Positions 2,818 to 23,635 of a DNA stretch of 40,848 nucleotides are shown here, piece after piece. The stretch's first letter is position 1, and the number at the start of each line of letters is the position of its first letter. Position numbers and translations under genes: made by a program. A model generated the notes under the pieces. The model was not told where the DNA came from and did no database searches. It worked only from the letters and a program-made list of their open reading frames with translations. Source of the stretch: Gammaproteobacteria bacterium Ga0077554 (GTDB lineage: Bacteria > Pseudomonadota > Gammaproteobacteria > Ga0077554 > Ga007554); contig LNFF01000031.1 in assembly GCA_001464585.1 (NCBI GenBank), positions 131,148 to 171,995 on the forward strand, read 5' to 3'.

Positions 2818-2848
2818 GTTTACCCAGTGTTACAAGCAGGGATTGTGA

Positions 2849-3433: not shown

Positions 3434-3435
3434 CT

Positions 3436-5527: not shown

Positions 5528-6373
5528 CTATTTTACGCCTTCAATACCTAACTGCATGGTACGCTTTGAAAATGATTCATCGGTAAGGCCAACATTTATC
5601 CGCACATCGCTCACGGTCAAGGTGGTTTTATTACCGCTGAGCATATTTATACCTTTGACCTCTTCCCACATCCAGGCATTGCCAATTTTTTTCCATTTCG
5701 TCATCTGCTGCTTGTGCATTTTTCCATGTTCATTGTAATAATCAACGCGTAATGGCAGAAAATTATCTTTTGATATCCACTTTACAACCTTGCTATAGGG
5801 ATAAGCTTCTTCCGCGTTTGGTTTAGGTATACCCTGAATAATATAACAATCTACATCACCCAGTTTTTCTGTACCTATAAGTTGCTGCGTGTCGTACTCG
5901 GGATGGCGCGGCATCAAGTCATATTGCCGCAACTCAGAGGGCGCGAATTCTTCCTGCTTGGCGTGTTTGGGGCCACTGTGGCTCAATTTTCTTACCATGC
6001 GCAATTCAGGCAAATACACCCATTCGTCATCATTTCGGCTAGGATTTGGCGTGTAAAAAAACCCCATGTATGACACGCCCTTTGCATCAGGCGGGAACTC
6101 ACGGAACATCATCACCTTTGCTTCATACTCACCTTGGGTAAAATGTTTCCAGGCCATGGTATACACCAACTTCTTTTCTGGAAATCCTTTTTCCTGAAAG
6201 GTAAAGGTAATGCGCGACAATGAATCATCACCGCTATACACCGCGTAGGATTTCTGCATAATGGCATCGGCGCTGGTTTCTTCCGCCCGTGCGTTGTGGG
6301 CTAAAAAAGCTGCCCACATGACGAAGCAGATAACCATCTTGACTAAAATCACGGAATTTTTGCGGTTAATCAT
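5528..6373 (-). CDS. LolA-like outer membrane lipoprotein-sorting family protein (first copy)
   Basis: A signal peptide (ends HNARA-EE) precedes a roughly 250-residue domain of the LolA-like family (PF17131 type). Typical strings are FREFPPDAKGVSYM, DEWVYLPELRMVRKLS, LPLRVDYYNEHGK and a C-terminal VSDVRINVGLTDESFSKRTMQLG. These proteins are periplasmic, with a fold that binds lipids or acyl chains, and often accompany RND/MMPL transporters. AAAGGG lies seven bases before the ATG. The gene is convergent with the GGDEF-EAL gene, with only 10 bases between the stops and no clear terminator. It is a distant paralogue of the gene at 20329-21177. Its RND partner is not adjacent. Confidence 0.82.
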   Translation of the reverse strand: MINRKNSVILVKMVICFVMWAAFLAHNARAEETSADAIMQKSYAVYSGDDSLSRITFTFQEKGFPEKKLVYTMAWKHFTQGEYEAKVMMFREFPPDAKGVSYMGFFYTPNPSRNDDEWVYLPELRMVRKLSHSGPKHAKQEEFAPSELRQYDLMPRHPEYDTQQLIGTEKLGDVDCYIIQGIPKPNAEEAYPYSKVVKWISKDNFLPLRVDYYNEHGKMHKQQMTKWKKIGNAWMWEEVKGINMLSGNKTTLTVSDVRINVGLTDESFSKRTMQLGIEGVK

Positions 6374-8734: not shown

Positions 8735-10021
8735 ATGATACAGGTAAGCGGCCTCACCAAGATATTCTCTTCCGGCACCAAGGCGCTCGACGAGCTTGAT
8801 CTCAACGTCAAAGACGGGGAGATTTTCGCTCTGCTGGGGCCTAATGGCGCGGGCAAAACCACCACCATACGTATTCTTTCCACGCTGTCCGGCTTTGATT
8901 CCGGGCAGATCATCGTGGCGGGTCATGACGTTGACCTCAACCCGGAAAAAGTCCGTGAAGCCATCGGTGTGGTGGCGCAGCAAACCGGCATTGACTATTT
9001 TTTAACTGGCCGCGAAAATCTGGTGCTGCAAGGCCACATGTATCGCATGAAAAAAGCCGATATCCAGGCACGCGTCACAGAACTGGCCCAATATTTCGAG
9101 CTGGAAGACAGCCTGGATCGGCTGGTCGCCACCTATTCCGGTGGTATGCGCCGTAAACTGGATATCGCCACCGCACTTATTCACCGTCCCACGCTGGTTT
9201 TTCTGGATGAACCCACCCTCGGCCTGGATATAAAAAGTCGCAAAAATTTGTGGGCTTACGTCGAAAAAATGAACCGAGAGCTGGGTCTGACCATCCTGCT
9301 CACCACCCATTATCTTGAAGAAGCTGACAAGCTCGCCCAACGCGTCGCCATTATCAACGCGGGCAAGATTCGCATTACCGGCACCCCCGATGAGCTTAAA
9401 AACACCATCCACGGCGATGCCGTGGTGCTCAGCTTTGAACAGCAAGACCACGCCACCGCCGCGTTTGCCTATACCATGAAAAGCGAACCCGAGATCAAAG
9501 ACACCCTGTGGCAGGGCAATAAATTGCATCTCTATGTTGCGAACGGCGCCGAAAGCATCCCAAAAATCGCCCTTGTGGCCTCGCAGCAAGGGCTGACCAT
9601 CAAATCCCTGGCGCTGTCTCGCCCCACGCTGGACGACGTATTCCTCAAATACACCGGCAGCAGCCTCACCGAAGCCAAAGAAGACACTGGCGACGAGTGG
9701 TGGAAACAGTGGGCCGGCAAAGGCGGCGGCAACTGGAACAAGAAATGGGCCAACGAAGCGGAAGAATCAACTGGCGAAACAGAAACAACCGTACAGGAGA
9801 CACAACAACATATGACTACCACTAACGACACCGAAAAAGACGAAGGCACGCAACCGCCTGCAACCCCGGCAACGGAAACCCCGGCCAAAAGCGGCGGTGC
9901 CGCGCCTTGGAGTCCCGAGGAAATGGAAGCATGGTGGAAGCAGCAGGGTGGACAACCCCAATGGCCGACTGAAAGTGGTGGCGCGCCCAATACCACGAAA
10001 GATCCTGGCAAAAAAGATTAA
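8735..10021 (+). CDS. ABC transporter ATP-binding protein, DrrA type, with Trp/Gly-rich acidic tail
   Basis: Residues 1-310 form an ABC ATPase of the daunorubicin-resistance (DrrA) type: Walker A GPNGAGKTT (about 35), signature YSGGMRRK (about 134), Walker B LVFLDEPTLGLD (about 155) and switch histidine in TTHYLEEAD. The last 115 residues are not part of the family. They are low complexity, rich in Trp, Gly, Lys, Glu, Thr and Pro, with repeated WWKQW / WWKQQGG strings. The permease follows after a 218-base gap holding a repeat. The substrate is unknown; drug, polyketide, lipid or polysaccharide are all seen in this class. No clear ribosome binding site precedes the ATG. Confidence 0.9.
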   Translation: MIQVSGLTKIFSSGTKALDELDLNVKDGEIFALLGPNGAGKTTTIRILSTLSGFDSGQIIVAGHDVDLNPEKVREAIGVVAQQTGIDYFLTGRENLVLQGHMYRMKKADIQARVTELAQYFELEDSLDRLVATYSGGMRRKLDIATALIHRPTLVFLDEPTLGLDIKSRKNLWAYVEKMNRELGLTILLTTHYLEEADKLAQRVAIINAGKIRITGTPDELKNTIHGDAVVLSFEQQDHATAAFAYTMKSEPEIKDTLWQGNKLHLYVANGAESIPKIALVASQQGLTIKSLALSRPTLDDVFLKYTGSSLTEAKEDTGDEWWKQWAGKGGGNWNKKWANEAEESTGETETTVQETQQHMTTTNDTEKDEGTQPPATPATETPAKSGGAAPWSPEEMEAWWKQQGGQPQWPTESGGAPNTTKDPGKKD

Positions 10022-10052
10022 TCTCTCATTACCGCAAATAACACAATATTTT

Positions 10053-10182
10053 TGTCATCTCGACCGTAGCTTAGCTGTCATCCCGAACGTAGTGAGGGAT
10101 CTTAAGGATCTCTCCCGGCAACTGCTCCTGCGTTGCTCTACCTTCCGCCATCCATGGCGGTCGCCTGCGGTCGAGATGACAG
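10053..10182. repeat. Modular palindromic repeat, copy 2
   Basis: The copy begins TGTCATCTCGACC, contains a second start (TGTCATCCCGAACGTAGTGA) and GGATCTTAAGGATC, and carries the CAACTGCTCCTGCGTTGCTC module with an internal CGCCATCCATGGCG palindrome. It ends in CGAGATGACA. It lies inside the gap between the ABC ATPase and permease genes and would be transcribed with them. Confidence 0.75.
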
Positions 10183-10239
10183 GGAACATTAAAAAACGAC
10201 GATTTAAGCTGGTTCAGCATTACCCACAAAGGACATAGC

Positions 10240-11001
10240 ATGTTAGCCGATACCTGGTATCTTTTTGGCAAGTACATGAGGATCACCATCAGAATGCCCT
10301 GGTGGTCGTTGTTTACCCTGTTGCAGCCGCTGATCTGGCTGGTGATCTTTGGGCAGCTCTTCAAGAATATGTCGCAGCTACCGGGCTTTCCCACCGGCAG
10401 CTATGTCGACTTCTTCGTGCCTGGCGTATTGATCATGACCGTGCTGTTCGGCTCATCGTGGTCGGGCGTCAGCCTGCTGCGTGAAATCACCGCCGGCGCC
10501 GTCGATAAAATGCTGGTTGCTCCGGTGTCGCGCGTGGCGATTGTGCTGAGCCGTGTGCTGCATTCTGCGGTGCAAGTGCTGGTGCAGACCTTGATCATCC
10601 TCGCCGTAGCACTGGGATTAGGCGCCGCCACCAGCGTCAATCCGCTTTATATCGCCATGGCGATGCTGATTATTTTCTTGCTGGGGGTGGGATTTGCGGC
10701 GCTCTCGAATGGTTTTGCGATTCTGCTGCAACGCGAAGAACCGCTGGTGATGATCGGCAATCTCATGACGTTGCCACTGATGTTTTTTTCCACCGCGCTG
10801 ATGCCAAAAAACTTCATGCCGGAATGGATACACTACGTCGCGCTGGTGAACCCGATCAACTACGCCGTAGAAGCCGTGCGCGCTGTGCTGGTCGGCACCC
10901 CGGACTTTGCACTCTACTCCAAAGGCTTGCTGGTATTGGCGATCTTCGCCGCTGCTACACTGGCCTGGGCGGTGAATGCCTTTAATTCCTTGCGCGATTA
11001 A
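10240..11001 (+). CDS. ABC-2 type transporter permease (DrrB-like)
   Basis: The 253-residue membrane protein has about six hydrophobic segments and the ABC-2 permease pattern: PLIWLVIFGQLFK near the N-terminus, DFFVPGVLIMTVLF, SLLREITAGAVDKMLVAPVSR, a central LGVGFAALSNGFAILLQREEP and the conserved LPLMFFSTALMP before the last helices (VNPINYAVEAVR). AAAGGA is seven bases before the ATG. It pairs with the ATPase encoded just upstream to form an exporter. The cargo cannot be inferred. Confidence 0.93.
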   Translation: MLADTWYLFGKYMRITIRMPWWSLFTLLQPLIWLVIFGQLFKNMSQLPGFPTGSYVDFFVPGVLIMTVLFGSSWSGVSLLREITAGAVDKMLVAPVSRVAIVLSRVLHSAVQVLVQTLIILAVALGLGAATSVNPLYIAMAMLIIFLLGVGFAALSNGFAILLQREEPLVMIGNLMTLPLMFFSTALMPKNFMPEWIHYVALVNPINYAVEAVRAVLVGTPDFALYSKGLLVLAIFAAATLAWAVNAFNSLRD

Positions 11002-11043: not shown

Positions 11044-11072
11044 TGTCATCTCGACCGCAGGGAGAGATCTTA
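11044..11072. repeat. Truncated copy of the modular repeat
   Basis: TGTCATCTCGACCGCAGGGA followed by GAGATCTTA matches one half of the modular repeat. The element stops at, and overlaps, the TAA of the minus-strand FmdE gene, so that gene's stop codon lies in repeat sequence. Confidence 0.5.
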
Positions 11073-11684
11073 TGCACTGGCAGACACGCACTCCGCGCAC
11101 AGCTTCTTCCCATCCTTATCCTGCAACAAATCCGCTTTAGCGAACTCACCACACACCCCGCACGCTTCAGACACGTATTTTGAAGAGCGGGGCGACGGCA
11201 CCAACGTCACAAAACCCAGCTTAAACAACGCGGCTTCATCTGCCACGAGAATCTCCTGCACCTGGGAATCCAGCAATGCACTGAACGCGGCTTTTTGTTC
11301 CGGTGTAGCGCTTGGCGCATACGCTACCTTGCGTTGCTCACGCAATTGCACATGATCAAAATGATCCCAGTAATGGCAGTAGGCGCGCACCGCTTTACCC
11401 GTTTTGGCATTTTGCATCATAAACACCGACTTTCCGGTATTGGTGAGAACAAGGTTACGCTTACCTAACGTACACCCCGTCATTTTCTGAATTGCATCCA
11501 CCGCGCAAGTGGGAGCGCCGACATAGGCATACACATCTTTCATGTTTTTCATGTCATCGCCCATCTCGCGCATCAACGCCTTCGACACGCGATAACCCAT
11601 GGCAATATCCAGGCAATAGCACCCATGAAACCCGACAACCCCACTAAACTCTTTTTTGGCGGCGTCAGCTATAGCTTCACTCAT
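11070..11684 (-). CDS. FmdE family protein with C-terminal zinc ribbon
   Basis: The first 140 residues match the FmdE fold: GFHGCYCLDIAMGYRVSKAL, GAPTCAVDAIQKMTGCTLGK, a TNTGKSVFMMQNAKTGKAVR segment. The C-terminus has a four-cysteine ribbon (CGVCGE...CAEC), as in other FmdE proteins. The usual HGHxC metal motif reads H20-G-C22-x-C24, so the second His is replaced by Cys. FmdE-family proteins occur widely outside methanogens and their role there is unclear; metal or cofactor binding is likely. ATG 11684 was chosen because GGGAGG is eight bases upstream. It is the last gene of the envelope operon, 35 bases after the TPR gene. There is no signal peptide, so it is probably cytoplasmic. Confidence 0.82.
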   Translation of the reverse strand: MSEAIADAAKKEFSGVVGFHGCYCLDIAMGYRVSKALMREMGDDMKNMKDVYAYVGAPTCAVDAIQKMTGCTLGKRNLVLTNTGKSVFMMQNAKTGKAVRAYCHYWDHFDHVQLREQRKVAYAPSATPEQKAAFSALLDSQVQEILVADEAALFKLGFVTLVPSPRSSKYVSEACGVCGEFAKADLLQDKDGKKLCAECVSASA

Positions 11685-11719
11685 AATCATGGCCTCCCAT
11701 ATCGACACAAGAAATGTTG

Positions 11720-14431
11720 TTAGAAGCTCAGCACCATGCCCGCCGTCAATGATATTTTTGTATAATCACCCAGAGACCTACCCACGCCTATCACATCTTC
11801 CGTGCTTAGCGTGAATCGCACCGGCAGATTAGCATCACTCATCTGAAAAGAGCCATTCACATAAGCCCTGATTCTATTATTCATCTCATAATTCAAGCCA
11901 AAGGATATTGAATTAAGGGTAGTCATACGGTTTTTATTTGCACCTGTCACAAAAGAATAAAGTGAATCCGGGTAAAGATAATAATTAAAACCAAAACTAT
12001 ATGACGCGTTACCGGACAAGCGCGGGGAAAATGATTGGTCCAGCCGCATCATCGCCGTAACACCACGATACGCATAATCACGCCCCTGAGGGTTCTTGTT
12101 CTGGCTATCCGTATAACTAAAATCCAACGTGGAGGATCGTCCCTTTCCTAACGATTGTGAAAACGATCCGCCTGTCGAATAGGTGCCCGAATCGAAAAAC
12201 GGACTGCCATGATTGGACACATTCCGGTAGGAAAGATTAAGCCGAACCGAGCTACTGGTTTTTTTTATTTCTTCGGGTTGCGCCAACCATTTCAGCAATG
12301 CGGGCCTATCGAAACGCCAGCCCATATCCGCGTAAAAGTTATCAGTGATGCTGAAACGCTGTTCATTAAGCAATCCCGACATGTCAATACGCGTCATGCC
12401 CACCGTCACATTTCGCGCGGCAGGGCCAAATGTTACAAACGGCCCGATATCCAACCGCAAAAAATCAGACTGGGTATAGTGATAAATAATATAAGCGGGG
12501 CTGAACGAAATTCCACTTCTCAGGTCTCTGGTCAGCTTGTAACGGTAAATAAAATTAGTATTAAGACTTGATATGTATTCATAAAAAGGCTGCTCATCAC
12601 TTAAGTTGCTATTGTTATCATAAATAAGAGAATATCCCATATTATAGGTAAAGCCATTTATCCGCCGCTCCAGCATCGGGATTCTTTTTTCTGCGCTATC
12701 CACCACCGGGCCAGTGCCGCCATTCTGAACTATATAACGATACTCCTTGATCGCCTCCTCTTCCCGGTTAGACTGCTCATAAAGAAATGCCAGGCTGGCG
12801 CGTGCGCCAATATGTCCCGGCGTTATCGCAATAACTTTCTTGTAAAGCCGCTCCGCTCCTCCCAAATCTCCCTGCGCAGATTGAATCAGCGCCTTATAGA
12901 ATAGCGCGGCTACATTATCTGGATTAGCACTCAGCAAGCCATCAAAATAAGATTCGGCAAGATCCCGATTGCCTTCGGCATAGAGTTTTTTTGCGGTTGC
13001 CATTTGTAACAACGCAATCACCTTGGTCGCTTCGGCCGGATCCTGCTCCAGCGATATGGCTTTGCCATACGACTCGATGGCTTCGGCGAATTTTGTTTTG
13101 TCGTCATGAATAATGCCAATATACTGATGCGCTTTCGCATTTCCCGGATCAATGCGCACCACTTCCTGGAACTCATGCAATGCCTCATCGCGCATTGCCT
13201 GACGCGCATATAACACCCCCAGGTTAAAGTGCGCAACGCTATCATTGGGATTTATCTTTAATGTTTCTTGATAACTATCACGTTGATCCGCGAATCTACG
13301 TGCTTCAATTAACTTATCGCCATACGTCGACTGCATGTCCCTCAACATCGCTTCCGCCTGTTTCGCAGGGGGCGCATCCTTGCCTAGCGCAATAACTTTT
13401 TCCAACACTCTGGAGCTCTCAACCAGCTTGCCCATCTCCAGGTAAAGCGCGCCAAGGCGCAAGTGGGCGTCCTGGTTACGTGGCTCAAGTACAGTCAATC
13501 TCTTGAACATCCCTGCCGATTCATCAAGCTTTTTTAATTGGCGATAAATAATTCCAGAATTAAAAAGCGCGTTGGTCTCATTAGGTTCGAGCTCCAGAAC
13601 CAACTGAAACTCTTTTAACGCCCCCTGCAAATCTTCTTTCTTCAGAAAGTCCGAGGCCTTGATGACGCCCAACCTAATGGTAGCCCGGCGCGCAAGATCA
13701 GTCCCCGGCTCCAGCATCACCGCTCTTTTATATTGTTCAACCGCCAGCGGCACCCTGGCAGATCTTTCATACACCCGTCCCAAATAAAAATAGGGCGTAG
13801 CGCTGCCAGGAGAAAGTTGCGCTACCTGTTTAAATACCGCTTCGGCATCTTCAAGACGATTAAAGTTGAAATATGCCAGGCCCACCGCGTGCAATACGCG
13901 GGGGTCAGATGAATAATCACGGCGCAAGATCGCTGTTAATGCCAATGCCGCATCCAGATTTCCGCTTTCGGCATATTGCCTGACCAATAACAGATTAAGA
14001 TTTTTCTCTGACTCAATAGCATCTGTGGTGCCCGGTACTTGCTCTATAACAGTCCGGTATTGCCGAATCGCATCATCAAGCCGGTCAAAACGCTCGTAAG
14101 CCACAGCCAAGGCCATACGCACCCTGGCATTTCCAGGCACCAATCCGACACTTCTTTGCAGAAAACCCAATCCATTCTGCGCATCATTCATACGCACATA
14201 AATAATACCCAGATGATAATAAGCTTCCGCATTATTAGAGTTCAATTTTGTAATCTTATCAAAAACACCTATGGCATGATCAAGGTCGCCATTTTCCATC
14301 AAGCTTTTACCTTGCTTCATCAATTTTTCAATTGCAATGGCCTCGACGGTGGGTTTCTCCTCCGCAACTGCACCCACTGAAAGCGCGAGCGCGCCACTGA
14401 TGAGTAACAAAAAAAGCAGGATTATATGCAC
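11720..14431 (-). CDS. TPR-repeat protein with C-terminal outer-membrane beta-barrel
   Basis: The 903-residue protein has a hydrophobic signal (about 1-24), then about a dozen tetratricopeptide repeats to about residue 590 (for example AYYHLGIIYVRM, PYFYLGRVYERS, AHFNLGVLYARQ). A roughly 300-residue region of alternating strands follows, ending ISLTAGMVLSF, typical of a barrel inserted by BAM. This layout is shared by PgaA/BcsC-type polysaccharide exporters and Slam-type lipoprotein exporters; which applies here is not decided. The start is GTG with AGGGG four bases upstream. The Trp- and Tyr-rich barrel and the upstream RND gene point to export or surface assembly. Confidence 0.82.
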   Translation of the reverse strand: MHIILLFLLLISGALALSVGAVAEEKPTVEAIAIEKLMKQGKSLMENGDLDHAIGVFDKITKLNSNNAEAYYHLGIIYVRMNDAQNGLGFLQRSVGLVPGNARVRMALAVAYERFDRLDDAIRQYRTVIEQVPGTTDAIESEKNLNLLLVRQYAESGNLDAALALTAILRRDYSSDPRVLHAVGLAYFNFNRLEDAEAVFKQVAQLSPGSATPYFYLGRVYERSARVPLAVEQYKRAVMLEPGTDLARRATIRLGVIKASDFLKKEDLQGALKEFQLVLELEPNETNALFNSGIIYRQLKKLDESAGMFKRLTVLEPRNQDAHLRLGALYLEMGKLVESSRVLEKVIALGKDAPPAKQAEAMLRDMQSTYGDKLIEARRFADQRDSYQETLKINPNDSVAHFNLGVLYARQAMRDEALHEFQEVVRIDPGNAKAHQYIGIIHDDKTKFAEAIESYGKAISLEQDPAEATKVIALLQMATAKKLYAEGNRDLAESYFDGLLSANPDNVAALFYKALIQSAQGDLGGAERLYKKVIAITPGHIGARASLAFLYEQSNREEEAIKEYRYIVQNGGTGPVVDSAEKRIPMLERRINGFTYNMGYSLIYDNNSNLSDEQPFYEYISSLNTNFIYRYKLTRDLRSGISFSPAYIIYHYTQSDFLRLDIGPFVTFGPAARNVTVGMTRIDMSGLLNEQRFSITDNFYADMGWRFDRPALLKWLAQPEEIKKTSSSVRLNLSYRNVSNHGSPFFDSGTYSTGGSFSQSLGKGRSSTLDFSYTDSQNKNPQGRDYAYRGVTAMMRLDQSFSPRLSGNASYSFGFNYYLYPDSLYSFVTGANKNRMTTLNSISFGLNYEMNNRIRAYVNGSFQMSDANLPVRFTLSTEDVIGVGRSLGDYTKISLTAGMVLSF

Positions 14432-14524
14432 TACGCCCCTGCCAATACAGATTTATTGAAAAACATGCGTATCATCCTGAAAATGGTAATTGAACCATAG
14501 AGCAAACAACGCTCCTTTGCCGAC

Positions 14525-15427
14525 TTAATAATAAATATTAACCCTTACCAGGGCTTTCCAGCCATTGAAAGAAAGCGACAACGGGTTATATCCCGAACCA
14601 TTTTCCGAGTTATATTCCAGATTCTGAGTCTGGGGATTGGGACGTATCGGCACGTCAACAAAAAGATTATCCGTATCAAGAAAGTCCCTTTTCACGCTGG
14701 AATCCCGCAATGTAAAATCCCTAAGGCCATAGGCGTAGCCTGACTCAAACCCCACTGACAACCATTTCCGCAAATATAATTCCGCGCCAAAATCAAGTTG
14801 CAGCAGCAAAACACCGGTCGCCTGCGATAAAACCACCAAATTCTTCCGGAAACTTTCTACTGGGCCGTCGACAAACAAAAAGGCCCAATCCTCGCGATAA
14901 TCAATGTCAAAAATCTCCCGCAAAGAGAAACGATAATAGAGGTTTAGTTTCTCTGGACGGCGGATTACGTTATGTCGCCATCCCATAAAAAATTCATTAT
15001 ATGAAAGTTTTCCGCGCCGATTATTGCTGGCGCGCGACAATACACCTTGAATAGGTAACACACCACTTGCTGACGCCTCTGAAGAGCCCTCCCATGAGCT
15101 ACCGCCAATCAAAAACCAAACCTCATCGCTCATCTTCCATTGAAACTCTACGCCCGCCAAAGGCCCATAGTCTATACTTGGCAATGGATTTTTGAACTGA
15201 AATGTTCCCTGGGTAGGCGCATCACCTATCAGCAATAAATCTGCCCTGCCGGAAAAGGGAGCGCGGAATACCCCCTCGTTGAGTTGCTGGAGGTTGGGCG
15301 CATGAATCCCCACTATCGGAGAAAAACTCCACTCGCTCGCGTCCTGTTTTGCATAAACAACCTTTGAAACTGTCAGCAAAACAGCCAACAGGTGCGCATA
15401 CACAAAAATCTCCCTGCGGAGTGGCAT
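14525..15427 (-). CDS. Predicted outer-membrane beta-barrel protein, unknown function
   Basis: The 300-residue protein starts MPLRREIFVYAHLLAVLLTV with a signal peptide ending KVVYA-KQD. The mature part is rich in alternating strands and aromatic residues (VEFQWKMSDEVWFLIGG, NEFFMGWRHNV, LNLYYRFSLREIF, VGFESGYAYGLRDF) and ends in ALVRVNIYY, an outer-membrane barrel ending. The family was not recognised. ATG 15427 follows the RND gene's TAG after one base, so translation is coupled. A longer ORF begins at 15511 inside the RND gene but would put extra residues before the signal peptide and is disfavoured. Confidence 0.75.
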   Translation of the reverse strand: MPLRREIFVYAHLLAVLLTVSKVVYAKQDASEWSFSPIVGIHAPNLQQLNEGVFRAPFSGRADLLLIGDAPTQGTFQFKNPLPSIDYGPLAGVEFQWKMSDEVWFLIGGSSWEGSSEASASGVLPIQGVLSRASNNRRGKLSYNEFFMGWRHNVIRRPEKLNLYYRFSLREIFDIDYREDWAFLFVDGPVESFRKNLVVLSQATGVLLLQLDFGAELYLRKWLSVGFESGYAYGLRDFTLRDSSVKRDFLDTDNLFVDVPIRPNPQTQNLEYNSENGSGYNPLSLSFNGWKALVRVNIYY

Positions 15428-15428
15428 T

Positions 15429-17903
15429 CTATTCCACACGATACGCGGCCTCTTGGGGAGTACGCCACTTGATGTATGAAAACACCACGGGCAAGGTGAA
15501 TAACGCAGCAAGGCAGCTTACCACCATATAGGCAGCCACAAAGTATCCCAGCTTTTCATGCGGTGGAAACTGCGAAAAGAACAGCATCATAAAGCCCGTT
15601 GTCACAACCAGCGCATTAAACACAATGGTTTTTCCTACACTGCGTAACGTCTCCTGGGTGGCTTGTAAATTGTCGCCAGATCTGGCGTGCTCGCGCCGAT
15701 ACCGGAAAATATAATGAATCGCAAAATCCACGCCCACACCAATAGCGACACCTGCCGCCAGCGTGGTGGAAACATCAATCGGGATACCTGCAAACCCCGC
15801 ATATCCCGCAATAGTTGCCGTTGCCAGACTCACAGGAATAATTGTTACCAACCCCATCATTGCCGAACGGAACAATACCGCCGCGAGCAGGAATATCCCG
15901 AGCTTCGATAAAATAATCGCCAAGCCCTGGCCCGTAATCAACAAATCTGCCCAGATATAGGAGTTATTTGCCGATCCCGCCAGATTAACTTTTACGTTCA
16001 ACCCCTGCATTTCCTGCTTGATGAAATCATTAACACCATCAATGATAACTTTAAGATCGCCGGTGTGATCCGTTTTTATGAAAAATGTTATGTTTGCCTG
16101 GCGATAATCATAATCCACCACTTCATTCAACAAATCTGGCTGGCCTGAAATAGAAAACAAAAACAGATCTTCCGCAATTTCGGCTTGCGTGGCGGGTAAT
16201 GTATTAGATTCCGGCGCATCGGCATGCAGCGTCTTGTTCATGCTTTTGAGATAATCAACGACCGACAATGAATCACCCACATAGGGCAGCGCTTCAATTT
16301 TATTTTGCAGTTGCTCAATTTTCTGCAGGAGTGGCCGCGATTTAATGGCATCTTTCTGCGCGCCTTCAACCACCACATTCAGGAATATAGTACCGTCAAA
16401 TTTCTTGTTAATCATGTCATTCGACAGCGCAACCTCGGTGTCCTTCTTGAAGTCACTCATCCAGCTGGAATCTACCCGCAGCAATGTCGCACCATAGATA
16501 CTCACCACCAAGACAACCACCAGCCCCGCAACTACGCCGCCTTTATGGGCTACGGCAGCATTACCCCAGGAAACCAGGGTGCGGGTCATTACATCCTGTT
16601 CAGCATGCACGCGTATCGCCCGGCGCTTGGCCAGATAATTTCCTACTTTGGGCTTTAGCTGACTCAACGCTGCGGGTAAAAAAGTCACTGATAAAAGCCA
16701 GCAGTACATAATGCCCAGCACCGTAAACAAACCAAATATCTTGAAGGGTGGCATTTCCGAAAATAACAGCGAAAGAAAACCGATGGCGGTGGTGAGCGAT
16801 GTCGTGATTAACGGCGGGCCTAATTCCACCAGCACTTCAGAAACAATCACCTTGCTGTCACGGTGTGGGTCACTTAATACGTTATCGTAATAATTACTCA
16901 ATAAATGCACCGCATTACCAATCGCCACCGCCACCAGAATCACCGGCAACATGGTAGAAATGGTATACATAGGCACATCCAGTAACGCCATGGTACCCAT
17001 GGTCCAGACAATACCCATTGTCATCATTAACAACGGCAACACCACCGCCCGCAAGGTACGGAACACCAGAAAGAGAATCAGCATGATCGCCCCCATCAAC
17101 AGGGGAATCATAAGTTTCATATCCTGCATGGCATGAAACCCGGAACTGACCTCTATAACCGGGCGACCCGCCAGATAAAACTGATCATTGCTTTTAGCGG
17201 CAGGCGCCACCGTGCTTTGTGCCGGGTCGGGTTGCGCGCCCTGCTGGGAGCCTTGTTGCCATTTCTGCCAATCTCCGCCGCCACCTGCATTCTGCGCACC
17301 ATTCCAGGCACCGCCGCCGCCTTCTTCAGCGGCAATAATACCCTTGATCTGCCAATAGGTCTGGTATCGCGTGGCGATGCCTTCTTTCAGCTTGGCTCGA
17401 ATCATGGCGGCGGTGCCATCTGCCGAGACAATGTTACCGACAAATAAATCCTTATTGCCGTAGACCATCCGCTTAACCTGATCGACACCTGCCGAGTCGG
17501 TCGGCACGGTTTCCATCAGGCGTTTTGTGCTGAGTTCTGATTCAGTGCCGGTAAATACCGTGGCGGTGGATAATGACGCGACATCAATATTGCGATGGGC
17601 AATGACACCGGGCAGCGCCGCCACTTTCTCAGTAATACGCGCAATGCGTTCCAGCGTCCCGGGATTAAATATGCTTTCTTTTTCATTAACGATGCCAATG
17701 ATAACCGCATCCTTGACGCCAAACACATCATGAACTTTTTCGTCATATTGAATTGCCACATGCCCTTTCGGCAAATAAACACGGGCGTCCGTCTCCCAAC
17801 GCAGCTTGGGCAATTGCAGGGCAAGAAATACAGTGATTGCAACAACAAGAAACAGGACAACTTTCGGGAAGCCAATAACCGTAGCGTATAATTTTCTTAG
17901 CAT
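15429..17903 (-). CDS. RND superfamily (MMPL) transporter
   Basis: The 824-residue inner-membrane protein has the doubled RND layout. Helix 1 is at about 14-32, followed by a periplasmic domain and a helix bundle from about 258 (MIPLLMGAIMLILFLVF) with VAVAIGNAVHLLSNYYD and LTTAIGFLSLLFSEMPP. A second half starts at about 451, and its bundle (from about 655) holds AAGVAIGVGVDFAIHYIFRY. It belongs to the predicted exporters of the RND superfamily (COG1033) and should use the proton gradient to move a hydrophobic molecule. An extra Gly/Trp/Gln-rich loop sits at about residues 191-232 in the first periplasmic domain. It lies between genes for outer-membrane barrels. Confidence 0.92.
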   Translation of the reverse strand: MLRKLYATVIGFPKVVLFLVVAITVFLALQLPKLRWETDARVYLPKGHVAIQYDEKVHDVFGVKDAVIIGIVNEKESIFNPGTLERIARITEKVAALPGVIAHRNIDVASLSTATVFTGTESELSTKRLMETVPTDSAGVDQVKRMVYGNKDLFVGNIVSADGTAAMIRAKLKEGIATRYQTYWQIKGIIAAEEGGGGAWNGAQNAGGGGDWQKWQQGSQQGAQPDPAQSTVAPAAKSNDQFYLAGRPVIEVSSGFHAMQDMKLMIPLLMGAIMLILFLVFRTLRAVVLPLLMMTMGIVWTMGTMALLDVPMYTISTMLPVILVAVAIGNAVHLLSNYYDNVLSDPHRDSKVIVSEVLVELGPPLITTSLTTAIGFLSLLFSEMPPFKIFGLFTVLGIMYCWLLSVTFLPAALSQLKPKVGNYLAKRRAIRVHAEQDVMTRTLVSWGNAAVAHKGGVVAGLVVVLVVSIYGATLLRVDSSWMSDFKKDTEVALSNDMINKKFDGTIFLNVVVEGAQKDAIKSRPLLQKIEQLQNKIEALPYVGDSLSVVDYLKSMNKTLHADAPESNTLPATQAEIAEDLFLFSISGQPDLLNEVVDYDYRQANITFFIKTDHTGDLKVIIDGVNDFIKQEMQGLNVKVNLAGSANNSYIWADLLITGQGLAIILSKLGIFLLAAVLFRSAMMGLVTIIPVSLATATIAGYAGFAGIPIDVSTTLAAGVAIGVGVDFAIHYIFRYRREHARSGDNLQATQETLRSVGKTIVFNALVVTTGFMMLFFSQFPPHEKLGYFVAAYMVVSCLAALFTLPVVFSYIKWRTPQEAAYRVE

Positions 17904-17974
17904 GACAAGTAACAGATCCTCTTATTCAGACAGGCGGTTATTTGGTTCTGTTGATATTTGGGATATAGCGACGA

Positions 17975-18006
17975 GCCTTAAGATCCCGCCCTGCGCTCGG
18001 GATCAC
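17975..18006. repeat. Truncated modular repeat in the envelope operon
   Basis: CTTAAGATCCCG, a short spacer and CTCGGGATCACA form a small hairpin (GATCCCG at 17982-17988 with CGGGATC at 17998-18004) that matches the half-palindrome of the modular repeat. It lies in the 168-base gap before the RND gene and could act as an attenuating stem in the transcript. Confidence 0.5.
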
Positions 18007-18071
18007 AATAAACGCCGCGCAGAAGCGCTCACCAGCGCCCCGCGCGCGGCATGAAACTCAGTTTAAACAGG

Positions 18072-19637
18072 TTAAAATGAATATTTAAACTCCATATAAA
18101 TCCTGTCATTATCGTGGAAGTTCCCTAAAAACTGCGGTCTTTGTTGGGTTGCTGCGATAAGATTATTAATGGAACCACCCCCCACATCGCCGAGAAAACC
18201 ACTGTTCCCATAAAAGAGATCGAGCCCGCCACTCACCTGCAATTTATCCGAAACCTGAAAAGTCAGCTTAGGCTTCACCAAAGACTCTTCCATGTTAATA
18301 AGATAAATCCATAGAAATTGAAAGATTGCCGAATTCTGCGGAAACTCCTTGCGCGCAAACAAACTGAATGAACTATCATTTTGCGGCTGAATGAAACCAT
18401 CATCATAGTCGAGGATATGCCACAGAGTGTAACCAGGCGAGAGATCCATACCCAAAACGTTGAAATCCAGCCCGAGTCCCCAACGAATATGATCACGCTG
18501 CGATTCACCGTTGGAATCCGTAAAGCCATCCCCATCCCGATCCACGGTATTCCTTAAGCCGAAATATTTATCCGTAACATACGCCGCTTCGGTTTTCACA
18601 ATGACTGGCCCGACCTGTTTTACTGCGGTAGCGCCATACATGTTCATGCGCGTATAAGTAGGATACAAGATAGGTGGATTATTCGGTGTTTGATCAACGC
18701 GCGCTGTGCGGAAAATCACCGGGAAATCATCCCATGTATAAAAATAACTTAACGACACTTCCGTATCGAGAATAGTGGTATTTACCTTGAACCCCAGTTC
18801 TGAATTCTCCAGGGCAAATGACTTGGGAAATTTCGTCAAGACATTATCCTGGTCATCACGGATGTCTTGCAGTAACTCCCATTCAGAGCCGCGCGGCGCC
18901 GGTTTATGAAATCGAATGTCGGGAATCCAGAGAAATTGGTAGGTCGTATCGCCCCGATAATGATCCAGCTTTACAGTCCACAAGGGAATGCGGTAGTCCA
19001 GCAAATCCGGCAAAATCAACTCTCTAAAATCAATAGGATTAATTTCATCGGTAATGCGCACACCCTCCAGCACGCCCCACACCACATATTGCTTGCCTAC
19101 ACGTATATCCAGGTTTTTCAGAAAAAAATCCAGGTACAACTCGCGTGTCTCGGCTACAGGAGAATCTTTTTCGCGCGGCAGCGTTTCAACAAAGACCAGG
19201 GGTTCCTGTGAATTCCTCTCCGGACGCGCGGCAATCGTGCGGTAGTCAAACAAGTCATATGCCAAATCATAATACGCCCAACCCGTATAATTAAATTTCA
19301 CCGTTTTGCTAATCGGGTATTGCGCGTTCAAATAAGCGATATTGCGGATTTTGGTGATCGAACGCGGCTCCCGCACACGGTAAGCCGTTTCATTTTTCAG
19401 GTAGCCGGTAAAGCGCCATTTTGACCAGAAAGAAGCTTGATCCTGCTGGTCACCATCAAGCTGCCCCGACACTGAAAAATCCTGCGAAGCTGTCTCCGCC
19501 GCAGCATCTTCAATCACTGTTTCTGCCGCTGGGGATGGGGCTGTCACCTCATCGGCCGCCTGCGCCATGGCAACTGCCATCACCCCTATAACGCCCAGCG
19601 CAAACCACCTTACGCCTATCCCTTTCGTGCTTTTCAC
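18072..19637 (-). CDS. Outer-membrane beta-barrel protein, DUF1302-like
   Basis: The 521-residue protein begins with a clear signal peptide (KSTKGIGVRWFALGVIGVMA..., cleaved near AQA-ADE). It has the features of DUF1302-type proteins: a strand with VGKQYVVWGVLEGVRITDEI, then NPIDFRELILPD and YQFLWIPDIRF, and a C-terminal IYMEFKYSF barrel ending. Such barrels are often encoded with an RND exporter and a LolA-clan protein, as here. GTG 19637 was chosen because AGGGG is six bases upstream and the GTGA overlaps the stop of the regulator gene, the normal coupling pattern. A start at ATG 19652 is possible. The cargo is unknown. Confidence 0.78.
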   Translation of the reverse strand: MKSTKGIGVRWFALGVIGVMAVAMAQAADEVTAPSPAAETVIEDAAAETASQDFSVSGQLDGDQQDQASFWSKWRFTGYLKNETAYRVREPRSITKIRNIAYLNAQYPISKTVKFNYTGWAYYDLAYDLFDYRTIAARPERNSQEPLVFVETLPREKDSPVAETRELYLDFFLKNLDIRVGKQYVVWGVLEGVRITDEINPIDFRELILPDLLDYRIPLWTVKLDHYRGDTTYQFLWIPDIRFHKPAPRGSEWELLQDIRDDQDNVLTKFPKSFALENSELGFKVNTTILDTEVSLSYFYTWDDFPVIFRTARVDQTPNNPPILYPTYTRMNMYGATAVKQVGPVIVKTEAAYVTDKYFGLRNTVDRDGDGFTDSNGESQRDHIRWGLGLDFNVLGMDLSPGYTLWHILDYDDGFIQPQNDSSFSLFARKEFPQNSAIFQFLWIYLINMEESLVKPKLTFQVSDKLQVSGGLDLFYGNSGFLGDVGGGSINNLIAATQQRPQFLGNFHDNDRIYMEFKYSF

Positions 19638-20137
19638 ATCAACCCCTGACATTGATCACACAAAATAATGTGCGTTGCACCGGCCTGAACCAATCCAGCC
19701 GCCAATCCTAACGTCACCGATGCCCCCGGCAACAACTGCTTACCACAACCAGAGCAATCCACTTGCCTGTTTAAACGAATCATTTCCCACCCTAGCACCG
19801 CAGGAAAACGCGTCACACATGGAAGAGCGTTAGCGAAGGGTTCTGTAAGTGCTGTGGGCGCAGGATGCACAGGAGCCGCCGCCGTCGCACCCATTCCCTG
19901 TGACGATCCATTGCGCGCGCTATAAGCCGAATTACGGGGACTTTTAAACGCATCTTCCAGAATATTGCGGATCAAGATCGAAACCGGAATCCCCTGCTCA
20001 TTGGCTCGCGCCGTGACCTTGTCACGCAATTCTTTAGGGACTCGGGCACCTAAAAACTCTTCTTTTCGTTTCATAGCCACAGACAAGGCCTGATTCCGCA
20101 TGGTCTGTGCCCGATTGACTCCTCTTTCACGCATCAT
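19634..20137 (-). CDS. Ribbon-helix-helix regulator with C-terminal Cys4 zinc ribbon
   Basis: Residues 24-66 fit a CopG/Arc-type ribbon-helix-helix DNA-binding domain (EEFLGARVPKELRDKVTARA, then ILIRNILEDAF). A low-complexity linker of about 50 residues follows, and the C-terminus has C128-x2-C131 and C160-x2-C163, which should bind a metal. It is likely a repressor of its own operon: a perfect inverted repeat overlaps the promoter just upstream. ATG 20137 has GAGGG seven bases upstream; starting at 20173 would place the start inside the operator. Part of the linker (codons over 19847-19880) matches the dispersed repeat. It overlaps the barrel gene by four bases. Confidence 0.78.
   Translation of the reverse strand: MMRERGVNRAQTMRNQALSVAMKRKEEFLGARVPKELRDKVTARANEQGIPVSILIRNILEDAFKSPRNSAYSARNGSSQGMGATAAAPVHPAPTALTEPFANALPCVTRFPAVLGWEMIRLNRQVDCSGCGKQLLPGASVTLGLAAGLVQAGATHIILCDQCQGLM
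19847..19880. repeat. Dispersed-repeat module inside the regulator gene
   Basis: AAGTGCTGTGGGCGCAGGAT and the following GCACAGGAGCC resemble the modules at 2904-2935 and (reversed) 26205-26250. It falls in the linker between the DNA-binding and zinc-ribbon parts and keeps the frame. Confidence 0.5.
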
Positions 20138-20148
20138 GGTTGTACCCT

Positions 20149-20202
20149 CATATGTATAACGAATGTTATACATATGTTATACGCGCCCGGTACGCACGTC
20201 AA
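20149..20202 (-). promoter_or_regulatory. Promoter and overlapping operator of the envelope operon
   Basis: On the minus strand TTGACG (20197-20202) and TAACAT (20174-20179) are separated by 17 bases, a plausible sigma-70 promoter. A perfect 12-bp inverted repeat, CATATGTATAAC / GTTATACATATG with a 4-base spacer (20149-20176), overlaps the -10 and transcript start. A third half-site (GTTATAC) lies at 20176-20182. The arrangement fits repression by the adjacent ribbon-helix-helix protein. Confidence 0.7.
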
Positions 20203-20231
20203 TCAATATTTAACTCATTAATAATCAACCA

Positions 20232-20287
20232 ATAAAAAAGGCCAGGGACACTCAAATATATCGTACTGATGTGAGTGCCCCGGCCTT
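20232..20287 (-). terminator. Rho-independent terminator after the second LolA-like gene
   Basis: Read on the minus strand, AAGGCCGGGGCACTCA pairs with TGAGTGTCCCTGGCCTT and is followed by a run of T (CCTTTTTTATT). It lies about 45 bases after the LolA-like stop and separates that gene from the regulator operon. Confidence 0.85.
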
Positions 20288-20328
20288 ACTGGAGTCCGTA
20301 CTTATCATCCCAAAAACGGTGATTACGC

Positions 20329-21177
20329 TTAGCGACGATAACCCTGCTGCAAGATTCTCTCAGAAAAAATATCGTCTTTCAGCCCCACGTTAATCTCGAC
20401 ATTGGTGACTTCAAACTGTGACGCGTGCAAGGTTTGCACATTCTGCACCGCGACTTTATCCCAGACATAAGCTGACCCCACTTTCTGCCATTTGAGCTGT
20501 TGCCGTTTCAGCAACTCACCTTTTTTGTCATAATAATCAACGCGAGCCTTAACGCACGTATCCCAAGTAGGCGTTTTCTGAAACCATGACACCTTTTTGG
20601 AATAGAGCGGATTCTTTTCCCGGGGGGTGCTCTCTACTACATAGAACTCATTCGCACCCGACGCCTCGACTTTAACCAACTTGTGATCGTCTTCATCCAG
20701 CATTCTGCCACTGATATCGGCATAGGTCAGATCCGAACCCAGGAAGCTGTCCCCCGGATCGCGGATGGATACACGACGGATTTTGCGTAATGCGGGCAAA
20801 TAAATCCATTGATCGGCATTTTTATCCGATTCGCGGGTAAACGCCCAACGCATGAAGCCTGCCCCCTGGGCATCGGGAGGGAATTCGGTAAATAACACCA
20901 TCTTGTCAACAATACTATTGACGCCCTTATAATCTTTCCATAAACGCAAATAGACATTTTTTCTTTCGCTGCCAGTGCTGTCTTTAAGGATGATAGTTAA
21001 TTTGGAGCGCTGATCTTCCCCCGCATTTTTGTAGTCACAATGCTTTACCACCTCCTCACCCGTCACCGTCGGCGCCACTTCTTCTGCCTGAACCGGCACC
21101 ATCACCGCACAGCCGCACAGCATCAAAAACGGGGCGATTCGACCCAGTAAAGCTTTAAACCTGGCTACATACACCAT
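20329..21177 (-). CDS. LolA-like outer membrane lipoprotein-sorting family protein (second copy)
   Basis: The 282-residue protein has a signal peptide (cleaved near VPVQA-EEV) and the PF17131-type LolA-like domain: LRLWKDYKGVNSIVDKMVLF, FPPDAQGAGFMRW, DQWIYLPALRKIRRVS, GSDLTYADISGR, KARVDYYDKKGELLKRQQLK and a C-terminal VEINVGLKDDIFSERILQQG. Such proteins probably carry a lipid-like molecule across the periplasm. ATG 21177 has GGAGG four bases upstream; the ORF extends to 21285 but that part runs into repeat DNA. It is close to the RND and barrel genes but is cut off from them by a terminator, so it is controlled separately. Confidence 0.87.
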   Translation of the reverse strand: MVYVARFKALLGRIAPFLMLCGCAVMVPVQAEEVAPTVTGEEVVKHCDYKNAGEDQRSKLTIILKDSTGSERKNVYLRLWKDYKGVNSIVDKMVLFTEFPPDAQGAGFMRWAFTRESDKNADQWIYLPALRKIRRVSIRDPGDSFLGSDLTYADISGRMLDEDDHKLVKVEASGANEFYVVESTPREKNPLYSKKVSWFQKTPTWDTCVKARVDYYDKKGELLKRQQLKWQKVGSAYVWDKVAVQNVQTLHASQFEVTNVEINVGLKDDIFSERILQQGYRR

Positions 21178-21200
21178 GAAACCTCCATTACCGTGACATT

Positions 21201-21460
21201 TGTCATTCCGAGCAGCCTTCAGCCCCCACGAAAGCGGGGGGGAGGAACTTCTTAAGGGTGCCTCTAAAAATTCAACAGCCGTCATTCCCGCGAAGGCGGG
21301 AATCCAGAAATTATTGATTTATCATCTGCCTCAGAACGCTGGATTCCCGCCTTCGCGGGAATGACGAATTATTAGAGGTACCCTTAAGATTTCTCGGCAA
21401 CTGCTCCTGCGTTGCTCTACCTTCCGCCATCCATGGCGGTCGCCCTTGGTCGAAATGACA
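21201..21460. repeat. Modular palindromic repeat, copy 3, interrupted by a MITE
   Basis: The left part starts TGTCATTCCGAGCAGCC and runs to AACTTCTTAAG. The right part resumes at CTTAAGATTTCTCGGCAACT, carries the CTGCTCCTGCGTTGCTCTAC module and CGCCATCCATGGCG, and ends CGAAATGACA. The two parts read as one element split by the insertion at 21252-21387. Confidence 0.7.
21252..21387. mobile_element. MITE-like element with TTAA flanks
   Basis: Inverted ends GGGTGCCTCTAAAAATTC and (reverse complement) GGGTACCTCTAATAATTC are flanked on both sides by TTAA, which looks like a 4-bp target duplication. Inside are second inverted arms, GTCATTCCCGCGAAGGCGGG and its complement, each with AATCCAG. There is no coding capacity, so it would be moved by a transposase elsewhere. 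The 4-bp duplication and GG-start ends suggest an IS5-like enzyme (inference). Confidence 0.7.
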
Positions 21461-21467
21461 CACGAAG

Positions 21468-22487
21468 CTAAGGCTTGGTAGCCGTAATCAAAGTAAACGG
21501 GCTAGGCTCAGGCAGCGGCCGGAAACTCACATCACGGAAACCCACCTCTTCAGCCATTTTCGCCACTTCCTGAGCCGAATAGGCGCGTCCCGCCGGGGTG
21601 TGCACTAACTGATTAAGACCAATCAGCACCGGCAACATCGGGCCGGTTTTCTCAGTATTCAAAAACTGTTCCTGCACCATCAACAACCCCCCGGACTCCA
21701 AGGCCTGGTAAGACTTGCTGATAATCGACCTGATCACATCCGGCCCTTCCTGATTGATCATGGAAGACAGCAACACGGCGTCATAATTCGACGAACCAAA
21801 CGCATCTTCGAGATAACTGCCTTCACGCGTCGAAACACTTTGCCCGGCGTTATACATGGCAATAATATCTTTGGTAACGCGCAGGGTCTGCGGCAGGTCA
21901 AACACATCCGCTTTCAACCCCTGATTATGTTGACAGAAAATAATCGAAAAAATTCCCGGCCCGCCGCCAATATCCACCAGACGCTTGCGACCCGCCAGCG
22001 ACACTTCCTGCGCCAGCAACTCAGCCTGCGGAATGCCGCGATACAGCATACCCATGATATAGGTGCGCGTCGCCTCATCACCGTGGTCATGCTGTTTCAC
22101 CACCACCGGCTCGCCACGCACCACGGCATCCTTCAGCTTGGACCAGGCAGGCACCCACGACTCAAACATTGAGACAATCCCACCCTGATAGCGGGGGCTA
22201 CCCTTAACCAGAAAAGTACTCGCCACCGGCGTATTACTATAACGCCCCGCCTGCTTGCTCAGCAGATCAAGACCAATACAGGCAATCAAAATCATCTCCA
22301 TGCCACGCACATCGGCGGCGCAGCGCTTTGCCAACTCTTCAGCGGTCGCAGAGCCTTCGGCAAGCTTGGTAAATACATCCAGGCTGTTAGCCACGTGCAA
22401 GACGCTGGAATGCCAATAGGCTGAGCTGATTTTCATTATTGCCATAGGGTCAAGGGTGGGGGAGGCTTGATGTGTTTGGTTGGTCAC
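21468..22487 (-). CDS. SAM-dependent O-methyltransferase (acetylserotonin O-methyltransferase-like)
   Basis: The 339-residue protein has an N-terminal winged-helix dimerisation region (SSAYWHSSVLHVANSLDVFT, LAEGSATAEELAKR) and a class I methyltransferase domain. This domain holds the SAM-binding RLVDIGGGPGIFSI (about 169), FDLPQTLRVTKD, and a C-terminal GGLLMVQEQFL segment. The family methylates hydroxyl groups on small aromatic or polyketide-like molecules; the substrate is unknown. The start is GTG with AGGTG eight bases upstream. It is upstream of the second LolA-like gene in the same direction, separated by 290 bases of repeats, and might modify the cargo of the nearby transport genes. 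Confidence 0.85.
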   Translation of the reverse strand: MTNQTHQASPTLDPMAIMKISSAYWHSSVLHVANSLDVFTKLAEGSATAEELAKRCAADVRGMEMILIACIGLDLLSKQAGRYSNTPVASTFLVKGSPRYQGGIVSMFESWVPAWSKLKDAVVRGEPVVVKQHDHGDEATRTYIMGMLYRGIPQAELLAQEVSLAGRKRLVDIGGGPGIFSIIFCQHNQGLKADVFDLPQTLRVTKDIIAMYNAGQSVSTREGSYLEDAFGSSNYDAVLLSSMINQEGPDVIRSIISKSYQALESGGLLMVQEQFLNTEKTGPMLPVLIGLNQLVHTPAGRAYSAQEVAKMAEEVGFRDVSFRPLPEPSPFTLITATKP

Positions 22488-22852: not shown

Positions 22853-23635
22853 TTAGAAGGTTGGAGCTGGACCAAAAGCACTGGTCCAGACACTGGCATC
22901 TGCCGCTGTGCTACCAAGGTTGGTCGTGGTGCCAATGACTGCGCCAGTAGCCAAGGTTTTAGATACTGTAATGCTGAAATCACCAGCAGCCGTCACAGAC
23001 TGACCAGCCCATAGAGCCTGCTCTGAACCCACATTTCTCAACTCAAAGCGCTGCTTATCTGTAGAAGATCCCAACCCAACTGTCTGCCCAACGCTCAGAT
23101 CCGATATCTGATTAACGCCGGCAGAAGTGGTCACTGCCGTCACGCCAAAGGTAGCGTTAAAGGCATCAAACGCACCAGCTGAACTCTCAGCTATACCCAA
23201 GGTCAAACCCAATGTCGCTTCGGATCTGTTTGCTCCAGCAGTGCCTGCGTTAGCGACACCCCAACCCGTCATAATCTGCGCGCTTGTTTGAAACCCAGCG
23301 CCATCATTAATGGTCATGGTTGAAGCCAAACCATTACCAGTGGTATTGGAATTGTTGGCGCCAATTTTTATAAAATCCTCCGACTCGAAAGTCGCATCAG
23401 CTATGCGGGTGCGGATATAGCGCTCGTTATTGATAGTCAACTCGCACTGCTGAAAACCCGCGCCAGTAACTGCACCCGAACCGCATGGGCTAGGGGCGCC
23501 AGTATCGTCGACAATATCACCGGCACCATTAACCGTCCAATTTCCAAAAGGTGTTGGCGGCGCAGCCATTGCTGCACCTGAAAGCAATAACGCGGCAGCG
23601 CCCAACGAACTTGCAATCTTAAATTTGTTACGCAT
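22853..23635 (-). CDS. Secreted protein of unknown function
   Basis: The 260-residue protein starts MRNKFKIASSLGAAALLLSG, a clean signal peptide cleaved near AAMA-APP. The mature part is rich in Gly, Ala, Thr, Ser and Asn with few charged residues and two cysteines (about 51 and 64) that could form a disulfide. Alternating small-residue strands (SEATLGLTLGIAES, FGVTAVTTSAGV, AGDFSITVSKTLATG) suggest an all-beta secreted or surface protein. No family was recognised and there is no visible PEP-CTERM or LPXTG tail. ATG 23635 has GGGGAGA six bases upstream, better than the upstream ATG. It is a single-gene unit with a strong terminator and a structured upstream region, so it may be well expressed. 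Confidence 0.72.
   Translation of the reverse strand: MRNKFKIASSLGAAALLLSGAAMAAPPTPFGNWTVNGAGDIVDDTGAPSPCGSGAVTGAGFQQCELTINNERYIRTRIADATFESEDFIKIGANNSNTTGNGLASTMTINDGAGFQTSAQIMTGWGVANAGTAGANRSEATLGLTLGIAESSAGAFDAFNATFGVTAVTTSAGVNQISDLSVGQTVGLGSSTDKQRFELRNVGSEQALWAGQSVTAAGDFSITVSKTLATGAVIGTTTNLGSTAADASVWTSAFGPAPTF

Follow-up and report, generated by a model that had tools for sequence, protein, structure and literature searches.

A conserved and apparently undescribed composite set of envelope genes, with a candidate secreted cargo family, in uncultured Gammaproteobacteria

Gene Content and Organization of the Locus

The window (i.e. the whole 40,848-nucleotide stretch of DNA that was analyzed) is part of a 172-kb contig from a 2.9-Mb gammaproteobacterial genome. 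An initial annotation, made from the sequence alone, had named eight consecutive minus-strand genes; all eight open reading frames (ORFs) were present upon checking, and Pfam searches agreed with the assigned names, in the case of the ribbon-helix-helix (RHH) regulator by weak matches only. Absent from that annotation were a convergent DrrAB-type ABC transporter, a secreted protein family, and the promoter/operator and terminator candidates. The features of the locus are as follows:

8735–10021, plus strand: ABC transporter ATPase, DrrA-like, with a W/G-rich C-terminal tail (residues ∼305–428); ABC_tran and DrrA1-3_C
10240–11001, plus strand: ABC-2 permease, DrrB-like; PF01061, 105 bits
11070–11708, minus strand: FmdE-domain protein with C-terminal Cys pairs, accessory; PF02663, E 8.6e-29
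11720–14431, minus strand: TPR-barrel protein, 903 aa; TPR families, hhalign to DUF560
14525–15427, minus strand: small 8-stranded outer-membrane barrel; AlphaFold2, no Pfam family
15429–17903, minus strand: RND/MMPL permease; PF03176, and TIGR00921 at E 4e-68, below cut-off
18072–19637, minus strand: DUF1302 outer-membrane protein, GTG start; PF06980, 62 bits
19634–20173, minus strand: RHH regulator; weak CopG/Arc matches below cut-off
20149–20176, no strand: operator candidate; perfect 12-bp inverted repeat
20174–20202, minus strand: sigma-70-like promoter candidate of the operon; TTGACG-17-TAACAT
20225–20310, minus strand: Rho-independent terminator between the LolA-like and RHH genes; −31 kcal/mol, z −3.5, followed by a T-run
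20329–21177, minus strand: LolA_like periplasmic protein; PF17131, 146 bits, and PF07044, 39 bits
21468–22487, minus strand: O-methyltransferase, accessory; PF08100 and PF00891
22780–22806, minus strand: terminator behind the secreted protein gene; 11-pair stem and T-run
22853–23635, minus strand: secreted beta-rich protein, candidate cargo; signal peptide, family alignment and co-occurrence

The tight couplings described in the initial annotation are there in the sequence: the RHH stop overlaps the GTG start of the DUF1302 gene as GTGA, and between the RND stop and the ATG of the barrel gene there is a single base (15428). Relatives show comparable tight gene joints. The ABC transporter gene pair (8735–11001, plus strand) is convergent with the operon, and the secreted protein gene (22853–23635, minus strand) lies upstream of the O-methyltransferase gene. 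The six genes from RHH to FmdE plausibly form a single transcription unit, whereas the O-methyltransferase and LolA-like genes probably lie outside the operon, since a strong terminator and the candidate promoter and operator stand between the LolA-like and RHH genes.

For the LolA-like protein, the most likely start is 21177, which is preceded by GGAGGT, and not 21285; the latter start, that of the long ORF, falls within a REP-like palindromic repeat (21260–21425; attcccgc..gcgggaat) that occupies the interval between the O-methyltransferase and LolA-like genes. Elsewhere in the window, TonB-dependent-receptor-like, YfiR-like and GGDEF-EAL proteins, named by eye from their translations, are encoded in a row at 688–5517, followed at 5528–6373 by a second LolA_like paralogue near tsaD that is syntenic in the window's family.

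Conservation across Genomes

Searching 95 related genomes with the small barrel produced 13 matches. Twelve of these loci were mapped, spanning several families of the class, and displayed the gene order LolA-like, RHH, DUF1302, RND, small barrel and TPR-barrel, followed by the convergent ABC pair, with some parts missing from some loci. Neighborhood searching with the RND gene and the small barrel, as proposed in the initial annotation, found the RHH, DUF1302, RND, barrel and TPR-barrel genes together in other genomes, contrary to the outcome that would have spoken against a single system. This recurrence supports reading the genes as a single, conserved trans-envelope system that carries a regulator of its own. 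When an RND alignment was scanned against 84,980 species genomes, 48 loci were recovered from uncultured Gammaproteobacteria; no record title named a cultured species, nearly all were metagenome-assembled genomes, and the isolate names suggest groundwater, sediment, vent-type or biocathode samples.

Retention of the individual parts was counted over those loci with enough flanking DNA to judge (36 or 33, depending on the part), and the counts are biased upwards somewhat because the RND alignment was built from barrel-bearing loci. Of 36 loci, 35 retained the DUF1302 gene and 30 the RHH regulator, and of 33 loci, 32 retained the small barrel and 27 the TPR-barrel; the LolA-like gene was present in 26 of 36 loci, the convergent downstream ABC pair in 24 of 33, and the secreted protein gene in 23 of 36. 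The O-methyltransferase (5/36) and FmdE (2/33) genes, which the initial annotation had counted as parts of the system, are rejected as core components on these numbers and are local extras.

A 299-genome draw from the phylum gave the locus's own genome as the sole match, but says little on other classes, as those listed were all of the same class. Plasmids searched with the RND gene yielded only distant paralogues (<30% identity) among the matches listed. A literature search returned no paper that combines the key terms of the locus. The composite set of envelope genes is real and conserved, and it is apparently undescribed.

Several observations were made on the surroundings of the loci. The locus comes after cytochrome c maturation (ccm) genes in L053, L062, L069, L070 and L074, and a CxxCH heme-motif protein is encoded beyond the ABC genes in L045, L062, L067, L069 and L075. 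In an expression study on ‘Candidatus Tenderia electrophaga’, RND goes unmentioned in the main text, where a single TPR gene, unrelated-looking, stands among triheme cytochromes.

A Secreted Protein Family as Candidate Cargo

The protein encoded at 22853–23635 has a signal peptide and, in the family alignment, two conserved cysteines. Conservation in the family extends to an N-terminal block with the consensus GFLQRQ...YxQTIITD, and many members end in a C-terminal FGxxPxF-like sequence. No Pfam match was found in 25 members scanned, including any to the 8-stranded C-terminal barrel family of TbpBBD type, and profiles of the secreted family and the small barrel had no match in a PDB sequence search up to E 1. 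The structural model is beta-rich, of low confidence (pLDDT 60), and yielded no meaningful Foldseek match, nor did it on a second look; the top row, the TbpB C-lobe, reached only E 0.35 and a probability of 0.10.

Co-occurrence was assessed in 274 genomes of the class, 18 of which matched the barrel profile and 17 the secreted-family profile. The secreted family was found in 17/18 barrel-bearing genomes and in 0/256 others (Fisher p 4e-26, a value that ignores descent), and the sole barrel-bearing genome without it is a fragmented assembly (G082). On an RpoB tree of 60 genomes, 10 of the 12 placed positives fell into one group, with one negative among them; the other two belong to lineages f36 and f52, each with both components. 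Parsimony on this tree required 4 changes, versus ∼11 with shuffled labels. Part of the co-occurrence is thus shared descent, as most positive genomes form one RpoB group, and a few joint gains or losses remain beyond it. Genomes carry 1–8 copies of the secreted family, most of them outside the locus on other contigs and some in tandem.

These data bear on whether the genes form a single system or are neighbors through shared ancestry only. The concentration of 10/12 placed positives in one RpoB group and the presence of tsaD beside many of the loci both speak for ancestry, yet the gene order is retained where the flanks differ (G058, and the ccm-flanked loci L053, L062 and L069), both components are found in the two scattered lineages, f36 and f52, and the secreted family accompanies the system even when unlinked. 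We consider mere ancestry very unlikely. The family, previously unnamed, is on these patterns a candidate cargo of the system, and two loci with a variant order (L047 and L058) have the TPR-barrel gene directly upstream of a secreted-family gene.

Two ORFs (L081:6678–8393 and L083:6322–8040) fuse the N-terminal block (the first ∼80 residues) to a YVTN-type beta-propeller and carry a GlyGly-CTERM-like tail. Such fusions suggest that the module may serve surface binding rather than export.

The TPR-Barrel Protein Resembles DUF560 Translocons

Pfam places TPR arrays in the N-terminal region of the TPR-barrel protein, followed by a C-terminal barrel part (residues 585–903). No match to PF04575 (DUF560) at the curated cut-off, nor to BCSC_C or PgaA_barrel, was found in the protein, and the 60 matches listed in a PDB search were all TPR. 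The C-terminal 319 residues were then aligned as a profile with DUF560 proteins, a set made up of PF04575 model matches in other genomes, most above the curated cut-off and all weak. The resulting hhalign probability was 97.8% (E 8e-13, 256 columns). Controls scored far lower: 1.0% for BcsC, 0.6% for PgaA (a single-sequence profile), 0.2% for DUF1302, 2.8% for the small barrel, 0.6% for a TonB receptor and 6.5% for reversed DUF560, while column-shuffled DUF560 gave scores of 18 at most, versus 96 for the real profile. The match held when members were left out one at a time and when the window's family was excluded from the set. The C-terminal part is a remote relative of DUF560/Slam, the translocon of type XI secretion (T11SS), and the protein is a candidate outer-membrane translocon.

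This relationship also bears on the nature of the cargo, which the initial annotation had given as hydrophobic or polymeric. Were the TPR-barrel protein a PgaA/BcsC-like porin, the locus would export a polysaccharide, in keeping with the joint TPR and barrel architecture and with the weak matches of the TPR region to the PgaA and BcsC models (weak as for any TPR). Against this are the barrel homology, with 97.8% for DUF560 set beside 1.0% for BcsC and 0.6% for the single PgaA sequence, and the recurrent neighbors of the loci, among which neither glycosyltransferases nor any polysaccharide synthase family were seen; the same genome also has a BcsC-like and a weak PgaA-like gene complement at other sites. 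Polysaccharide export was rejected on the barrel homology and the lack of synthases and is scarcely probable at all, which leaves the proposed polymeric cargo unsupported.

Compared with T11SS (Slam/DUF560, PF04575; NilB, HrpB), the locus shares the N-terminal TPR and C-terminal barrel arrangement over the 256 aligned columns, as well as beta-rich secreted proteins encoded nearby. It differs in that its TPR-barrel scores below the PF04575 model, its TPR arm is ∼550 residues long where most DUF560 proteins fetched are ∼450–480 residues in all, the sequence of its candidate cargo reveals no barrel domain of TbpB type, and it adds the RND, LolA-like, DUF1302, small barrel, ABC transporter and RHH components. 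T11SS barrel proteins have been described as necessary and sufficient, with cargo ending in an 8-stranded barrel (PMC8406197); a survey of T11SS cargo mentions neither RND nor LolA in its main text, and the experimentally verified DUF560 members all come from animal-associated cluster 1 (PMC12282271). Since the protein falls below the PF04575 cut-off and a cargo barrel is putative, we do not file the locus as a T11SS; it would work like one if our inference of protein export holds.

Known T11SS cargo often consists of haemophores and metal-binding proteins (PMC8406197, PMC12282271), which would also fit a role in uptake or scavenging. The secreted proteins would then bind an external ligand, as hemophilin and TbpB do, and the DUF1302, small barrel, LolA-like and RND proteins would import or buffer it, with the zinc-ribbon-like module of the regulator in 34/34 homologues (see below) and the NikR-like regulators near seven loci pointing the same way. 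Weighing against it, the neighbor survey revealed no TonB-dependent receptor recurring beside the locus, RND and ABC-2 permeases of these types are exporters in known cases, and no ligand motif was found; we regard uptake as unlikely.

Components of a Putative Path for a Hydrophobic Molecule

The RND permease matches PF03176 well above the cut-off. Its best NCBIfam model is HAE3 (TIGR00921; E 4e-68, 230 bits versus a cut-off of 352), the HpnN model scores 92 bits versus a cut-off of 752, and sequence matches to Dispatched and HpnN structure chains are weak; HpnN and Dispatched have the RND core in common with the locus but differ in their partner genes. At residue 330, the window's family has AxxIGN where other lineages have AxxIGD, so that of the two conserved acidic positions this family retains only that of GVD. 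The DUF1302 protein matches PF06980 at 62 bits (cut-off 23), and the LolA-like protein, in addition to its 146 bits with PF17131, matches PF07044 (DUF1329) at 39 bits (cut-off 23).

The small barrel (14525–15427) was an unrecognised barrel in the initial annotation and still has no Pfam match of its own, although a fold can now be assigned: the AlphaFold2 model (pLDDT 91.7) has 8 strands and aligns at Z 19.8 with the OprF N-domain and at 17–18 with NspA, OmpA and OmpW. The modelled resemblance to OprF, OmpA, OmpW and NspA is one of fold only and does not imply family membership.

The ABC transporter is DrrAB-like in combining an ATPase bearing DrrA1-3_C with an ABC-2 permease whose best NCBIfam model is drrB, below its cut-off. 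It differs from DrrAB in the W/G-rich tail of the ATPase (residues 305–428), which extends beyond the DrrA1-3_C match and is conserved in 27/27. The RND protein has a W/G/Q-rich stretch of its own in the first periplasmic domain (residues ∼195–225). Examples of such low-complexity sequence are EWWKQWAGKGGGNW and GGGGDWQKWQQGSQQG, the ABC tail being cytoplasmic and the RND loop periplasmic. At least five tryptophans within 40 residues occur in 27/27 ATPases, 39/49 RND proteins and 7/301 other ORFs, most of these seven resembling membrane proteins. That so unusual a stretch is common to the ATPase and the RND protein supports their belonging to one system.

The closest parallel to this part of the locus is AmeABCD, the HAE3-type RND cassette for monoterpene efflux of Castellaniella defragrans, which shares with it DUF1302 and LolA-superfamily proteins and an RND permease, that of the locus being nearest to HAE3. 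AmeABCD (RND, DUF1302 and DUF1329) confers protection from apolar compounds, presumably by exporting them, and tolerance of monoterpenes is reduced in mutants (PMC6394551). The locus differs from AmeABCD in adding the TPR-barrel, 8-stranded barrel, RHH-zinc regulator, ABC transporter and secreted family, and in placing the LolA-like gene in a separate unit close to the secreted gene. In 14/18 genomes, the best LolA-like homologue is encoded ≤3 kb from a secreted-family gene (calculated manually from the coordinates); in five of these (G058, G081, G184, G196 and G208), the LolA-like/secreted pair and the barrel/RND locus are on separate contigs.

An Ame-like exporter of a hydrophobe or lipid could by itself be the heart of the locus. 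The RND, LolA-like, DUF1302 and small barrel proteins would move the compound outward, the TPR-barrel would act as an assembly scaffold, and the secreted proteins would be lipid-binding carriers or a coat that leaves the cell by another route, e.g. type II secretion. The monoterpene phenotype of the ame mutants, the OmpW/AlkL-type fold of the small barrel and the GlyGly-CTERM-like tail of a secreted-family fusion all agree with this proposal. It is opposed by the TPR-barrel, a DUF560 relative that is present in 27/33 loci and beside the cargo gene in the variant order, and by the YCF48/COG4447-like AmeC, of which none was detected among the ten Pfam-scanned locus proteins or in the ABC ATPase. 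We consider an exporter of this kind possible but rather doubtful.

Proposed Mode of Action

The reading that we prefer, at roughly even odds (∼0.5), is T11SS-like export of a dedicated protein family, combined with an Ame-like RND/LolA/DUF1302 and ABC pathway for a hydrophobic molecule. Secreted-family proteins, given their signal peptide, would enter the periplasm via Sec, where the TPR arm would take the cargo and the barrel would pass it to the surface in a Slam/DUF560-like manner. The RND, LolA-like, DUF1302 and small barrel proteins would form an Ame-like path for the hydrophobic molecule, which the DrrAB transporter would feed at the inner membrane. The molecule may accompany, load or anchor the exported protein, which would account for the LolA-like gene traveling with the cargo gene.

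More tentatively, and short of even odds, the DUF560-like TPR translocon, the RND/LolA/DUF1302 lipid path and DrrAB may act together as a composite secretion machine. Such a machine might assemble the new protein family into a surface layer or a lipid-loaded matrix in environmental Gammaproteobacteria, with the zinc-ribbon RHH protein as its switch and the tryptophan-rich ABC and RND segments as a coupling or docking device.

If protein export of this kind is real, DUF560-type secretion would extend to free-living bacteria of groundwater, vents and biocathodes, and would gain a new cargo family and extra energized parts. The locus also points to a substrate that can be tested for RND/LolA/DUF1302 sets, for most of which no cargo is known, and the multi-copy secreted family, which marks system-bearing genomes, makes the system traceable in metatranscriptomes and metaproteomes.

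The RHH Regulator and Its Candidate Operator

All RHH homologues (34/34) have a zinc-ribbon-like CxxC...CxxC module at the C-terminus. The inverted repeat at 20149–20176 covers the RHH start (CATATGTATAAC-N4-GTTATACATATG), and 12-bp repeats of this kind had an expectation of 0 in shuffles. Across the 883 kb of related loci, its core, GTWTAAC-N0-14-GTTAWAC, is present at 19 sites, every one of them at an rhh start, with 0.05 expected in base-shuffled sequence; the stricter core GTATAAC-N0-10-GTTATAC has one site in the own genome. The promoter candidate (20174–20202) touches the operator; such matches in the region are no commoner than chance, which makes this one weak by itself.

Control of the unlinked secreted genes by the RHH protein was rejected, the operator being absent from the 20 unlinked loci and present only once in the own genome, and the pattern looks like that of an autoregulator of a single operon. 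The zinc-ribbon RHH protein would bind this repeat, at the promoter of its own gene, and hold down expression of the operon until the repression is lifted by a signal, perhaps metal or redox. Seven loci (L032, L036, L043, L044, L048, L052 and L071) have a gene for a NikR-like RHH regulator nearby, and several of these also carry moaA/moaC/moaE-like genes.
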